From: a virus
Reading direction: 5' to 3' (one strand)
IMG/VR virus record: IMGVR_UViG_3300046727_000088
Span: 1-30,094 of that record
DNA length: 30,094 bases
A program made the translations under genes and the position numbers. Below are positions 18,908-29,855 of the stretch, piece by piece. Position 1 is the stretch's first letter, and each line of letters opens with the position of its first letter. The notes below the pieces were generated by a model, which saw nothing but the letters and a program-made list of their open reading frames with translations, searched no databases and was not told the DNA's origin.

Positions 18908-19545
18908 GAGCGACTCGGCCGCCCACCCAGAAAGAGCGACTCAGGTTTGAGGCTAAGTATTGCCCCGAGCCGACCACTGGCTGCTGGCTTTGGACCGCGG
19001 CATCCGGTCGAGGCGGATATGGCGCCTTTGAGATCAGGGGGAAGACGCTCCGTGCCCACCGGGTCGCGTACTGGATGGCCTTCGGGAGTATTCCGCTTGG
19101 GCTTGGTGTCTGTCACCGGTGCGATACCCCGGCGTGCGTGAACCCGGACCATTTCTTCCTCGGCACCAATGCGCAAAACACCGCCGATCGGCATGCCAAG
19201 AAGCGGGATGCCACGGGTGACCGCAACGGTTCCCGGCTTCACCGGGAACGCCTCCCGCGAGGAGCCGCGCACTGGACTCGCTCGAAGCCAGAGCGATTGG
19301 CCCGAGGAGACAGGAACGGGGCGAGAACGAAACCAGGAAGTCTGCCAGTTCACGAGGGCAAGCTGAACCCGTCCGCCAAACTGACGGAAGCCGATGTGCT
19401 CGAAATTCGGGCCTCGTATCGCGGGCCAGGGCTTGGTCCGCGGCAATCTGATCTAGCGGCCACATATGGGGTCGACCGTTCACTGGTGAGCCTCATCGTG
19501 AACCGCAGGCTCTGGCCGAAGCTGGAAGCGGAGACGAGACAATGA
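18904..19545 (+). CDS. Free-standing HNH homing endonuclease
   Basis: 213 residues. Residues ~25-100 are an HNH_3-type nuclease: CWLWTAASGRGGYG, RAHRVAYWMAFG, VCHRCDTPACVNPDHFFLGT and N92, with likely core residues H71, N80 and H83 and zinc-type cysteines C70, C73 and C78. Residues ~105-160 contain repeated GDRNG motifs and GKLNPSAKLT, like NUMOD-type DNA-contact modules. The end is a helix-turn-helix (LAATYGVDRSLVSLIVN). Such enzymes cut alleles lacking the gene and spread by repair. It begins at the GTGA of the gp46 stop and ends in the ATGA of the gp47 start. Codon use seems less extreme than in neighbouring genes, consistent with acquisition. Confidence 0.9.
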   Translation: MRATRPPTQKERLRFEAKYCPEPTTGCWLWTAASGRGGYGAFEIRGKTLRAHRVAYWMAFGSIPLGLGVCHRCDTPACVNPDHFFLGTNAQNTADRHAKKRDATGDRNGSRLHRERLPRGAAHWTRSKPERLARGDRNGARTKPGSLPVHEGKLNPSAKLTEADVLEIRASYRGPGLGPRQSDLAATYGVDRSLVSLIVNRRLWPKLEAETRQ

Positions 19546-20732
19546 GCTTGGTCGTCCCGACAACCCAGACCATCGCCGACACGATCGTCGCGCAGCTCGA
19601 GAGCTCGCTCTCGCAGACGATCCCGCTGCTCCCGAAGACGTTCACGCGCGTGATCGCGAAGGCGCTCGCGGGCGTCTTCGTACTTCTTTGGAAGTACGCG
19701 GGGTTCGTGTGGTTGCAGATGTTCGTCGCGACCGCCTCGATGGCGGAAACGACGATCAACGGGAAGACGATCATCCCACTCGTGCAGTGGGGGCGCCTCG
19801 TAGGCGTCGGAGACCCGCTCGCCTCGACGCGCGCGGAGCTGCTCGTCAATGTCGTCGTTACTAACCAAGTCGGAAGCCTCCCGGCTGGCTCGCAGCTGCT
19901 CTTCACGGACACAGGGGTCCTCTATGAGACCGTCGCGGCCGTCACGCTCAACGCGAGCACGGTACCGGCGACGATCCGCGCGCTCTCTGACCAGAGCGGC
20001 GGGGATGGGTCGGGAGCGATCGGCAACCTCATCGCGGGTCAGATCGTCTCATTCACGAACGCACTCCCGAACGTTGCGCAAGCGACGACGGTCGTCTCTC
20101 AGACCATCACGGGCGCAGACGCCGAAGCGCCCGATGCCTACCGCTCCCGCGTCCTGAAGCGCTTCCAGCGGAAGCCGCAGGGCGGCGCTTATGCCGACTA
20201 CCAGCAATGGGGCGAGGCCGTCGCCGGCATCCTGAACGTCTACCCGTATGCGGGGAATCCCGGAGAGGTCGACGTCTACGTCGAGGCGACGGCAACTTTG
20301 GCTGAGCCCGATGGCTTTCCGACCGCCGCTCAGATCGCCGCAGTCTTCGATGCGATTCAGCTCGACGTCTCTGGAGCCGCAACACTTCGCCCGGTGAATG
20401 CCGCGGTGAATGTCTTCCCGATTACCCGGAAGAGTCTCAACGTCGTCGTGAGCGGGCTGCAGGCGGACGACATCGACGGGACCAAGCTCTCGATCTCCGC
20501 CGGCATCGACGAGTACTTCCGTTCCCGCGAGCCGTTTATCGTAGGCCTCTCCGTGCTTCCGCGCGCAGACAGGATCACGGTCGCCGCTCTCGGCGGCGTC
20601 GTCGAGGGCATCGTATCCGCCTCGGGTGGCTCAATGACGTCCGTCTCGCTCTCGATCGATTCCGCGCTTCAGACTGCCTACACGCTCGGAGACGGCGAGA
20701 AGGCGAAGCTCGGGACCGTGAGCTACGCCTAA
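19542..20732 (+). CDS. Baseplate J-like wedge protein (Mu gp47-like)
   Basis: 396 residues. Baseplate J family features: the N-terminal helix region followed by GVFVLLWKYAGFVWLQMF, PLVQWGRLVGVGDPLASTRAELLVNV, GAIGNLIAGQIVSFTNALPNV, then GADAEAPDAYRSRVLKRFQRKPQGG, which is a family signature ('E..e.yR.Rvl......p..g'), and AVAGILNVYPYAGNPGEVDVYV. It forms the wedge arm with gp46 and gp48. The start overlaps the HNH stop (ATGA). Two unrelated genes and a reverse gene then separate it from gp48. Confidence 0.9.
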   Translation: MSLVVPTTQTIADTIVAQLESSLSQTIPLLPKTFTRVIAKALAGVFVLLWKYAGFVWLQMFVATASMAETTINGKTIIPLVQWGRLVGVGDPLASTRAELLVNVVVTNQVGSLPAGSQLLFTDTGVLYETVAAVTLNASTVPATIRALSDQSGGDGSGAIGNLIAGQIVSFTNALPNVAQATTVVSQTITGADAEAPDAYRSRVLKRFQRKPQGGAYADYQQWGEAVAGILNVYPYAGNPGEVDVYVEATATLAEPDGFPTAAQIAAVFDAIQLDVSGAATLRPVNAAVNVFPITRKSLNVVVSGLQADDIDGTKLSISAGIDEYFRSREPFIVGLSVLPRADRITVAALGGVVEGIVSASGGSMTSVSLSIDSALQTAYTLGDGEKAKLGTVSYA

Positions 20733-21501: not shown

Positions 21502-22347
21502 ATGGCAGTCAATCCCCGCACGACCTATGCCGCCCAGACGGTCGACGACGCGAACTATCCCTACGGCAAGGCGCGCAACGTCACCGTCGCCCGAGACGGC
21601 ACGGGCACGCCGCTCGAGAAGGCTTGGGTGAACGACCTTTGGGGCTTCCTGCAGTCCCTGCTCAGCGCCGCGAGCATCGTCCCGACCAATACCCCGGACC
21701 AGCTGGGCGCCTCGCAGTACCTCGACGCAGTCAAATATCTGATCGCGAACGTCGCCGAAGACGTCACGTTCTCGGGCCTCGTGCGGTTCAACGCGGCGAT
21801 CACGGCGATGGCCGCCGCGGCATTCGAGGCGGCCGTCACGTTCGGCGCCCCCGTGACGTTCGAGGATACCGCGGCCTTCTCCGGGAACGTCGACCACTCA
21901 GGGGACGACACCTGGCACAACAGGAACACGATCTTCAAAGACGCCGGCGGGGCCACGATCGGCACGATCGGCGCCGGCGCCGGACTCATCTGGACGCTGC
22001 TCGCTGGGTTCTCGAACGAGATCGTCCTCACCGGGGCGGGACGAATTCGCCAGAACGTCGCCATCGCGCCCGACGCGGACCACACATACTCCGAGGGAGA
22101 CGCGACGGTCATCGTCTGGGGAAGCGGCATCGCTGCGACGCGGACGATCAAATTCAACAATGCGGCGTCAGTGGGCGCGAAGATCCGGCTCGTGAACTAC
22201 TCGGCCCACGCGATGACGCTGCAGAATCAGGCAGGGGGATCACTGATCCTCGCGCCGACCCTTCCCGCGGTCGCCTCGTTCCGGCCCGGGGTGATGGATC
22301 TGATCTGGGTCAACAACGGGACGTATACGGGATGGAGCGAGGGCTGA
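21502..22347 (+). CDS. Tail fibre protein
   Basis: 281 residues. The N-terminal ~80 residues carry a tail-fibre attachment pattern: YP.GKARNVTVARDGTGTPLEK, WVNDLWGFLQSLLSAASIVP and the LGASQYLDAVKYLI ending. A shaft-like segment follows (residues ~85-130, FNAAITAMAAAAFEAAVTFGAPVTF, with regular V/A-T-F spacing), then a C-terminal beta domain (DHTYSEGDATVIVWG...). The family is found in many phage fibres that bind baseplates. The stop at 22347 abuts the reverse-strand lipoprotein stop with no intervening base. Confidence 0.75.
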   Translation: MAVNPRTTYAAQTVDDANYPYGKARNVTVARDGTGTPLEKAWVNDLWGFLQSLLSAASIVPTNTPDQLGASQYLDAVKYLIANVAEDVTFSGLVRFNAAITAMAAAAFEAAVTFGAPVTFEDTAAFSGNVDHSGDDTWHNRNTIFKDAGGATIGTIGAGAGLIWTLLAGFSNEIVLTGAGRIRQNVAIAPDADHTYSEGDATVIVWGSGIAATRTIKFNNAASVGAKIRLVNYSAHAMTLQNQAGGSLILAPTLPAVASFRPGVMDLIWVNNGTYTGWSEG

Positions 22348-22986
22348 TTAGTCGCAGGTCTGCCCCCGCGCGTGCATGTAGTAGTAGAGGTCATTCGTCG
22401 TAATGGAGCAGTGGTATCCGGTCTGGGCGTCCCACGTAATATCGACGCCCCAGATGCCGAGTTCTCCGCATGCGGGAACGACGCCCGGATCGTTGCACGG
22501 CGTCTTCCAGCACGGTCTCCATCCCTCAGTTCCCGACGAGGTCATCCCGACGTAGTCGCATGTGAACCCGTTGGTCCAAGTGTTCGGCGGCGGACACGCG
22601 TTGTCGAGCTTCGGGCAGGTCGCAAACCTCGTGAAGACCGGCTGCGGACCGGCATCGAACGGCGCCGCGTCGGAGCCAGCATCGAGAGCTCCACCGGTCC
22701 CGCTTCCTCCCGAAGCAGTCCGGCTTCCGCCGGCGCTCGCTCCTCCCTCCGAAGCTCCGCCGGTTCCCTGATCGCCTCCGTCCCCGATCGTCTCGCCGCC
22801 TGATCCCGCTCCGCCCGATCCGCTCCCGGCGCTACCTCCAGAGGCTCCGCCGCTCGATCTCGCCGCGGTCCCTGAGTCGTTCGCCGCTCCCCCGGTGCCT
22901 GACACCGCCGCGAGACGCGTCCCCGGAGCATTGCTCCCGCACGCGAGAGTCAGAGCGAGAGCGAGCCAAGAAAGACTTTTCCCCAT
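22348..22986 (-). CDS. Secreted lipoprotein on the reverse strand (likely moron)
   Basis: 212 residues on the opposite strand to the rest of the operon. A short hydrophobic signal, MGKSLSWLALALTLAC, ends at Cys16 in a lipobox-like but not ideal context (T-L-A-C). Residues ~17-110 are a Gly/Ser/Ala linker with many GG and SGG repeats, a style common in myxobacterial surface lipoproteins. The C-terminal ~90 residues hold eight cysteines (likely disulfide-bonded) and aromatic residues. I chose the ATG at 22986 because the signal begins there; upstream in-frame codons give no signal. The product probably alters the lysogen's surface (for example superinfection exclusion), but that is inference. 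It could also be a leftover host gene. Confidence 0.75.
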   Translation of the reverse strand: MGKSLSWLALALTLACGSNAPGTRLAAVSGTGGAANDSGTAARSSGGASGGSAGSGSGGAGSGGETIGDGGDQGTGGASEGGASAGGSRTASGGSGTGGALDAGSDAAPFDAGPQPVFTRFATCPKLDNACPPPNTWTNGFTCDYVGMTSSGTEGWRPCWKTPCNDPGVVPACGELGIWGVDITWDAQTGYHCSITTNDLYYYMHARGQTCD

Positions 22987-22992
22987 CGGGGA

Positions 22993-23021
22993 AGTCTCGG
23001 GACGACTCGATCGCGCGTCAA
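22993..23021 (-). promoter_or_regulatory. Predicted promoter for the reverse lipoprotein gene
   Basis: On the reverse strand, TTGACG (23021-23016) is followed after 17 bases by GAGACT (22998-22993), a weak -10. The predicted start falls at or next to the lipoprotein ATG, so the message would be leaderless or nearly so. No clear ribosome site precedes the ATG, which agrees with this. The -35 is good (5 of 6) but the -10 is poor (3 of 6). Confidence 0.35.
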
Positions 23022-23023
23022 CT

Positions 23024-23043
23024 GAACGTTCGAACGTATGTTC
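23024..23043. promoter_or_regulatory. GAAC/GTTC half-site cluster, possible operator
   Basis: The stretch reads GAAC-GTTC-GAAC-GTAT-GTTC. It contains the perfect 12-base palindrome ACGTTCGAACGT (23026-23037) and a GAAC-N4-GTTC element (23032-23043), the core of a Gram-positive-type SOS box. It lies just upstream of the predicted lipoprotein -35 and across the gp48 start codon. A repressor site is possible; gp48 coding constrains the last bases. Confidence 0.4.
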
Positions 23044-23847
23044 TTTCGCGTTATTCAACACCTTCTGCCGACGGGCGCGGCCTGGCGCACGACGGTCACT
23101 AAGACCCTGCGAAAGTTCTTCCTAGGGCTTTCTCAGGCTCCGGAGGACGCTCGGACCTACATCGATCTGGTCCTCCTCGACGTCTTCCCCGACACGACGA
23201 GAGAGCTCGCAACATGGGAAGCGCAGTTCGGTCTCACGCCGGCCGCGACCGCAGACGAGGCGACGAGGCGGCTCGCGCTCGCGGCAGAGTGGGCCGCCGG
23301 CGGAGGGCAGGATCCGACCTACATTCAGGGCGTCCTGCAGACGGCGGGCTTCGACGTCTACGTCCACGAGTTCTGGACCTCCGGCCCCCCGTACATCGCG
23401 AGGGACCCGAGGAGCTACACGACGCCGCCGGAGTTCGGGACGGCGCAGTGCAACGGGACGGACGCGCTCGGACAGGCCCAGTGCGGGGACGGACTCCCGG
23501 GGCATGAGGTCGACGCGGACGTGAGCCAGTACCAGTGCGATCGGTTCCTTCAAAACGATCCGCACTACTTCGCGAACAAGAATCTGACGGACGTCGCTCC
23601 GCCACCGATCCCCGATGACCCGGCACGCTGGCAGTACTTCCTGTACGTCGGCGCACAGAACTTCCCCGACTACGCCGAGGTCCCCCTCGAGCGGAAGGCG
23701 GAATTCGAGCGTCTGATCCTGAAGCTTCGGCCGCTGCAGAACTGGATCGTGACGCTGATCGACTTCTTCGGCGCGGCTGAGGTCCTCGATACCGAGGCGG
23801 GCGATGCGTTCCTGACCGAGGCCGGAGACGAGTTCCTGCTCGGGTGA
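23038..23847 (+). CDS. Baseplate protein (Mu gp48-like)
   Basis: 269 residues (Mu gp48 ~190). The start MFFRVIQHLLPTGAAW fits the 'LLP.G.AW' signature of the gp48 family, followed by ELATWEAQFGLTPAATADEATRRL. Residues ~100-190 are a larger insert with cysteines (AQCNGTDALGQAQCGDGLPG), and the end has WQYFLYVGAQNFPDYA and FERLILKLRPLQNWIV, as in longer homologues. It ends with an acidic tandem, TEAGDAFLTEAGDEFLLG. In Mu it follows gp47 directly; here three genes intervene. No clear ribosome site precedes the ATG. Confidence 0.83.
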   Translation: MFFRVIQHLLPTGAAWRTTVTKTLRKFFLGLSQAPEDARTYIDLVLLDVFPDTTRELATWEAQFGLTPAATADEATRRLALAAEWAAGGGQDPTYIQGVLQTAGFDVYVHEFWTSGPPYIARDPRSYTTPPEFGTAQCNGTDALGQAQCGDGLPGHEVDADVSQYQCDRFLQNDPHYFANKNLTDVAPPPIPDDPARWQYFLYVGAQNFPDYAEVPLERKAEFERLILKLRPLQNWIVTLIDFFGAAEVLDTEAGDAFLTEAGDEFLLG

Positions 23848-29106: not shown

Positions 29107-29855
29107 GCCTTCATCGCGTCCCCCACCGAAAGGCTCACAAGCCCATGAAAATCCAAGTTCTGAATCGCTCGACCCTCGTCAAAGATTCCGACGTCCAGAC
29201 GTGGACGACGGCCTGCGCAATGCAGCTCACCGACGACGTCGCGCCCGCCCACGAGAAGACGGCGCCGACGGTGACGTTCCTCGCCGGCGGGCAGAAGGCC
29301 GACGCGGACGCATTCCAGGCCGTACTCCTCGACCACGCCGACGCGGCCGGCGCGCTCGGGTACCACGATCTCGATCCCGACGGCCGCCCTTACGAGAAGA
29401 TCTTCGTCAAGGACACGCTCGACGCGGGCTGCAATGTCTCGACGACGCTGTCGCACGAGATGTGCGAGATGTTCCTCGATCCGCTCTGCACGCTGTGGGC
29501 GAACGCGAAGGACGGCGGGATCGACGCCTACGAGCTGTGCGACGCCGTCGAAGCCGACGAGTACTCGAAGAACGTCGGCGGGGTTCACGTCCCGGTGAGC
29601 AACTTCCTCCTTCCCGCGTACTTCGCGCCGTCGAACCCGCACAGCGCGCCGACCGACTTCCTCGGTCTCCTGCACGGTGCGGTCTCTCCGGCGCTCCGTC
29701 CCGGCGGTTACCGCATCTACGCGAGCATGGGCCAGGCGAACCAGGCCTTCGGGCGCACGGTGCACGCGGAGTTCCACGTCGACTACCCGGAAGCGCAGCG
29801 GGCGGCGAAGCAGCACCCCGCGGCGAGAACCGCTCGGAGGCTCGCGGCACCGTGA
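29103..29855 (+). CDS. Putative HExxE metallopeptidase-like protein
   Basis: 250 residues, start fixed by ATGA overlap (an alternative ATG at 29145 would remove 14 residues). The key motif is THE-type H118-E-M-C-E122 followed by D126-P, then DAYELCDAVE with E144/D147. This H-E-x-x-E...D-P...E-x-x-D arrangement recalls metallopeptidase-like proteins in phages and EXORDIUM-type proteins. Also SNFLLPAYFAPSNPHSAP and PGGYRIYASM. No signal peptide. It could be a lytic or virion peptidase, but activity is not shown, since the canonical HExxH is replaced by HExxE. Confidence 0.5.
   Translation: MSLHRVPHRKAHKPMKIQVLNRSTLVKDSDVQTWTTACAMQLTDDVAPAHEKTAPTVTFLAGGQKADADAFQAVLLDHADAAGALGYHDLDPDGRPYEKIFVKDTLDAGCNVSTTLSHEMCEMFLDPLCTLWANAKDGGIDAYELCDAVEADEYSKNVGGVHVPVSNFLLPAYFAPSNPHSAPTDFLGLLHGAVSPALRPGGYRIYASMGQANQAFGRTVHAEFHVDYPEAQRAAKQHPAARTARRLAAP

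Follow-up and report, generated by a model that had tools for sequence, protein, structure and literature searches.

A lipoprotein gene in the window, the 30,094-nucleotide stretch of viral DNA analyzed here (IMG/VR record IMGVR_UViG_3300046727_000088, positions 1 to 30,094), belongs to a phage family that is known only from metagenomes and in which this gene, where present, is located at one fixed spot among the tail genes, always backwards. It looks like a gene that changes the surface of the host cell and not like a component of the virion. Our favored reading, held with moderate confidence, is that the gene is a moron (lysogenic-conversion gene) for which the late operon reserves a slot and which, together with its own promoter, forms a membrane-anchored display cassette.

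The lipoprotein gene and its surroundings

The 30-kb record is probably a fragment, and apart from the lipoprotein gene it contains the plus-strand late region of a contractile-tail phage, with genes for the terminase, portal, protease, capsid, sheath, tube, tape measure, hub, baseplate J, and fibers. All of the other credible genes are on the plus strand, and most of them match head, tail, or baseplate families, in agreement with the original prediction of a sole reverse-strand gene. The predicted coordinates and strand were also exact, with the stop of the gene touching that of the tail fiber gene, whose TGA ends at 22347 (zero bases between them), and with a gap of 51 bases separating it head to head from the gp48 gene (Phage_Mu_Gp48, E 2e-10). 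The features of this region, in window positions, are as follows.

19542 to 20732, plus strand: baseplate J gene (PF04865), the query for relatives and for the tree
21502 to 22347, plus strand: tail fiber gene (PHROG tail fiber matches), convergent with the lipoprotein gene
22348 to 22986, minus strand: lipoprotein gene, 212 amino acids plus stop, with ATG at 22986 and TAA at 22350 to 22348
22351 to 22647, minus strand: C-terminal domain with eight cysteines, class 1 (CPxLDNxCPPPxxWxxGFxCDYVGM)
22648 to 22938, minus strand: flexible linker rich in G, S, A, and T (G/S/A/T/P = 80%), from sequence
22939 to 22986, minus strand: signal peptide and lipobox, from sequence and regex comparison
22993 to 23021, minus strand: promoter-like element TTGACG-N17-GAGACT, six bases before the ATG, position conserved at 16 of 25 loci
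23022 to 23027, minus strand: GTTCAG element directly upstream of the -35 hexamer, found at -40 to -47 at 10 of 25 loci
23038 to 23847, plus strand: gp48 baseplate gene (PF10076, phrog_203), divergent from the lipoprotein gene

An HNH endonuclease gene (PF13392; 18904 to 19545) is also present between the baseplate wedge gene and the baseplate J gene, and a distal plus-strand gene (29139 to 29852) encodes a peptidase-like-looking protein that has a LSHEMCEMFLDP stretch and no Pfam match.

The protein had been predicted to be Gly/Ser linked with eight C-terminal cysteines, and a lipobox, a G/S/A-rich linker, and eight cysteines were indeed found. The signal peptide ends in LTLAC, with the lipobox MGKSLSWLALALTLAC followed by GSN, and Cys16 is the predicted lipidated residue, with glycine next to it. 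In myxobacteria, the absence of lysine after the lipidated cysteine suggests outer-membrane sorting (PMC5562445). The linker, some 100 residues in length, consists mainly of G, S, A, T, and P, and exactly eight cysteines follow the acylated one. Family searches with Pfam, PHROG, NCBIfam, and PADLOC returned no match for the protein. The base composition of the gene deviates from that of its neighbors, as it does in morons, with a third-position GC of 0.72 versus 0.83 to 0.90 in the phage genes, a difference to which the G/S/A-rich linker contributes. A hairpin, TTCCCC-GAT-GGGGAA, surrounds the start codon (22979 to 22993, minus strand); the scan that returned it found three hairpins against 2.0 expected, which is near chance.

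Because the window is GC rich and antisense open reading frames of more than 200 amino acids abound in it by chance, the length of this frame is no proof of a gene. It is the comparison with related loci that sets the gene apart from such chance frames. Homologs are present in the same slot and in the same orientation at loci L096 and L019, with 52 to 57% identity over the aligned C-terminal domain. These are the closest homologs of the window domain, and the differences are most numerous at third codon positions (26, 17, and 43 changes at codon positions 1, 2, and 3 between L096 and the window). Under a strict lipobox test, the slots (27.5 kb) gave eight hits on the reverse strand and none on the forward strand, and 544 kb elsewhere gave five on each. 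In nearly all slot proteins, the number of cysteines after the lipidated one is even, as expected for disulfide-bonded exported domains. The signal peptides, the even cysteine counts, the homologous domains, and the third-position bias together indicate selection on the protein.

The slot and its promoter among related phages

Searches with baseplate J and gp48 gathered 126 distinct related loci. Two gene orders occur in this phage group. In the first, J-gp48-fiber, which is that of the isolated Shewanella phage SppYZU01, gp48 directly follows J. All lipoprotein slots found belong to the second, J-fiber-gp48. The second order is represented by 49 distinct contigs, namely, 46 with a recognized fiber (the window included) together with L004, L109, and L177, with the contigs of L004 and L109 stopping before gp48. 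A lipoprotein gene follows the fiber gene in 25 of the 49 contigs and is on the reverse strand in every one of them. In 21 contigs, the fiber stop abuts gp48 and the slot is empty, which indicates that the lipoprotein is dispensable for the virion. The remaining three are ambiguous and consist of a decayed-looking copy (L010) and two loci without a recognized lipoprotein (L023 and L052). The convergent stops touch or overlap at many slot loci, and since such stops are too close together for a terminator, late transcription should cross and oppose the gene. The lipoprotein domain is present in at most one copy in each of the 20 whole records searched, and no description of the slot was found in the open-access literature searched.

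Further proteins of this kind were observed in these contigs. In several cassettes, a second family of small membrane-anchored proteins or lipoproteins, with ends resembling AAFLQAKDEANYRVWKATEATDCAAAGMP, lies ahead of the main lipoprotein on the minus strand (L031:5613-5945, L032:5616-5978, L099:4816-5070, and L021:5639-5941). A second lipoprotein with a G/S/A linker and a cysteine-rich start is encoded on the plus strand of a related contig, close to its distal end (L003:12942-13665).

An integrase scored above the Pfam cutoff in 7 of 20 related records and in none of the window fragment's 30 kb, and no serine recombinase was found among the relatives. As the relatives often carry an integrase, the family is read as temperate.

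The lipoprotein gene probably has its own promoter and a leaderless transcript, as judged from the conserved arrangement of its upstream sequence, which in the window reads GTTCAG-TTGACG-N17-GAGACT-N6-ATG. In the sequence that precedes the first cassette gene at the 25 loci, TTG(A/C)(C/G/T) occurs 33 to 38 bases before the start codon at 16 loci (mean of 0.7 and maximum of 4 in 1,000 shuffles) and GTTCAG occurs 40 to 47 bases before it at 10 loci (mean of 0.04 and maximum of 1), although the shuffles take no account of shared descent, so that these figures overstate independence. The promoter pattern is absent at nine loci. The original claim of a separate promoter is thus supported in that the position is conserved over the family and falls short in that the window copy was below threshold in a plain consensus scan. 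With this spacing, transcription would begin at the ATG or directly beside it, so that a leaderless message, as had been proposed, is to be expected.

GTTCAG at 23022 to 23027 and in 10 related promoters equals one half of the SOS box of Myxococcus xanthus, CTRHAMRYBYGTTCAGS (PMC9705874). The other half is poorly kept (5.8 of 10 positions versus 4.6 in shuffled sequences), and SOS control is not claimed. A second match to the GTTCAG pattern is located at 19357 in the window.

Tail-domain classes and their exchange

The C-terminal domains fall into two main classes. Class 1 ("CPPP/CDYVGM") comprises the window, L096, L019, and, more distantly, L037, and class 2 ("CCDGC," with the motif CxCxxGxCCDGC) comprises 14 loci. 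The slots of L004 and L007 encode short metzincin-type proteases, and other domains are present at five more loci. The two metzincin-like lipoproteins (L004:9655-10185 and L007:7059-7586, both minus strand) contain the motifs HEQGHTFGASH and HEIGHTLGLRH and give weak matches to matrixin and reprolysin profiles; a further match is to a metalloprotease family from Myxococcus (E 3e-4). Homology between classes 1 and 2 was rejected, with an hhalign probability of 1%.

On the baseplate J tree, the slot labels require 18 changes. One supported clade (99/90) contains the window and L096 of class 1 together with L032 and L022 of class 2, and a second (92/96) joins L019 of class 1 to L035 of class 2. 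This mixing within supported clades indicates that the tail domain has been exchanged while the slot persisted.

The search for homologs of the C-terminal domain that the original prediction had called for returned domains that lie antisense to tail genes, and no same-strand virion homolog, which that prediction had named as a refutation, was among the domain-scan matches. The class 1 scan returned only L096 and L019, both in the J-fiber-gp48 slot. Of the 12 loci in the class 2 scan, 11 are in this slot, and one is in a different, unrelated tail cluster, where a class 2 lipoprotein gene (L181:4927-5499) is antisense between spike-like and hub-like genes. A direct search with the window domain gave no relative among viral contigs, genomes, or plasmids, and its one match in phages was weak and partial.

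The structural model of the window domain is poor (pLDDT of 44, too low for use), and that of the class 2 domain reached a pLDDT of 81. Comparison of the class 2 model with solved and viral structures gave no significant match. When the class 2 profile was searched against PDB, all 11 hits were disintegrins, the best having an E value of 0.056 over only 23 positions, and PF00200 (disintegrin) was not among the Pfam matches of class 2. A kinship of the class 2 domain with disintegrins is suggestive only, and the question does not extend to the domain encoded in the window.

Candidate roles of the lipoprotein

Phage surface lipoproteins determine which cells are open to infection and what infected cells do. 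The layout proposed originally, that of a moron, is well supported by a slot that is facultative (25 filled and 21 empty), always reversed, provided with a conserved promoter, and present in an integrase-carrying family. Examples of phage morons are bor and lom of lambda. The window gene resembles such genes in being facultative, with 21 contigs lacking it between the same neighbors, in having its own promoter among late genes, by sequence comparison at 16 of 25 loci, and in its putative change to the cell envelope. The slot differs from morons in general in that it is fixed, always reversed, and almost always filled by a lipoprotein and in that it holds many unrelated domains.

Under the moron reading, the 51 bases that separate the gene from gp48 would contain a sigma-70-like promoter driving a leaderless reverse transcript. 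Because it appears to have a promoter of its own, the lipoprotein gene is best placed to act when the late genes are off, and transcription would occur while they are silent, in the prophage or early in infection; expression early in the lytic cycle would fit as well as expression from the prophage. The product would be exported, lipidated at Cys16, and presumably sorted to the outer membrane, where the tail domain, stapled by disulfides, may stand off from the membrane on the long flexible linker. The domain would most likely be exposed on the cell surface, a location suggested by the linker and the cysteines only. The displayed domain may change what the lysogen binds or admits, with receptor blocking being one possibility among several for the molecular effect. 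Late transcription, once on, would cross the gene head-on and should damp it. Recombination between phages would exchange the tail domain while the promoter and the anchor plan are kept. More tentatively, and with less confidence than in the moron reading itself, the slot may be a standing display platform. In this view, the temperate phages of a single large and mostly uncultured family would swap outer domains, new cysteine-rich folds and proteases among them, on a fixed promoter and lipid-anchor plan, and the platform would change how lysogens meet other cells, prey, or phages.

A narrower form of the moron reading is superinfection exclusion in the style of Llp or Cor, in which the lipoprotein inactivates the receptor of the phage's own fiber and closes the cell to sister phages. 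Its layout has precedents. The best is the T5 llp gene, located beside that of pb5, with Llp acting from the periplasmic side (PMC9586334), which speaks against taking surface exposure for granted, and exclusion lipoproteins have also been reported downstream of gpJ in other coliphages (PMC8594841). Like those of T5 Llp and Cor of T1-like phages, which are thought to act at the outer membrane, the window gene is a phage lipoprotein gene beside a putative receptor-binding gene, if the neighboring fiber has that role. However, Llp and Cor are small and have neither the long G/S/A linker nor the distinct cysteine-rich domain, whereas the window gene is antisense in the late operon, its tail domains are swapped, and searches via Pfam and PHROGs gave no sequence relation to them. 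A lipoprotein matched to the fiber would also be expected to travel with it, so that domain class and fiber tip would go together, but at class resolution they do not. The same domain class was found in 5 of 13 pairs with related fiber tips versus 92 of 140 pairs with unrelated tips (permutation P = 0.98 for positive coupling), in a coarse test limited to loci of the two main classes, as a single class could hold several specificities. The coupling was thus rejected at the class level, and the originally suggested blocking of phages that carry the neighboring fiber was not borne out. In addition, the fiber tips of the window and L177 are 45% identical, yet their lipoprotein domains are unrelated, the linkers and domains are far larger than Llp needs, and some slot proteins are proteases. 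On these grounds, we consider exclusion rather unlikely and do not favor it over the wider surface-altering role.

Less likely again is that the lipoprotein is social or competitive cargo of a myxobacterial host, acting on neighboring cells in a SitA-like manner, on prey, or on the matrix. The SitA toxins of the Myxococcus Mx-alpha prophages are, like the window protein as interpreted here, prophage-borne outer-membrane lipoproteins with variable C termini (PMC5562445), and the Myxococcus match of the two protease versions points the same way. The window cassette differs from SitA, however, in that no toxin domain was recognized in family searches and no immunity gene is present since the cassette consists of a single gene. 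The proposal also presumes a myxobacterial host, which is itself only suspected from the metalloprotease match and from the linker style of the slot proteins, which we take to point to myxobacteria; two genome scans for host assignment gave no match.

Outer spanins are lipoproteins, and a lysis or virion protein on the other strand, such as an outer spanin or a decoration lipoprotein, might be suspected from the location of the gene among tail genes. This is very improbable, as the gene is absent from 21 of 49 close relatives and opposes the direction of late transcription, the payloads are nonhomologous, and the lysis region is far away. No same-strand homolog was found in the domain scans or the 20 whole records, and with many relatives lacking the gene, a virion role was rejected. 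That an antisense transcript tuning fiber or late-gene expression is the main role, with the protein secondary, deserves slightly less credence still. The touching or overlapping stops mean that transcripts must overlap, which speaks for it, but the features of selection on the protein described above argue against it.

The best-known phage surface lipoproteins are single small proteins of enterobacterial phages. The repeatedly refilled reverse slot provides a list of candidate surface-altering proteins from a little-studied phage family, together with a rule for finding more, namely, a reverse-strand signal peptide within a late operon. The antisense class 2 domain at L181, in an unrelated tail operon, suggests that this rule may extend beyond the family.
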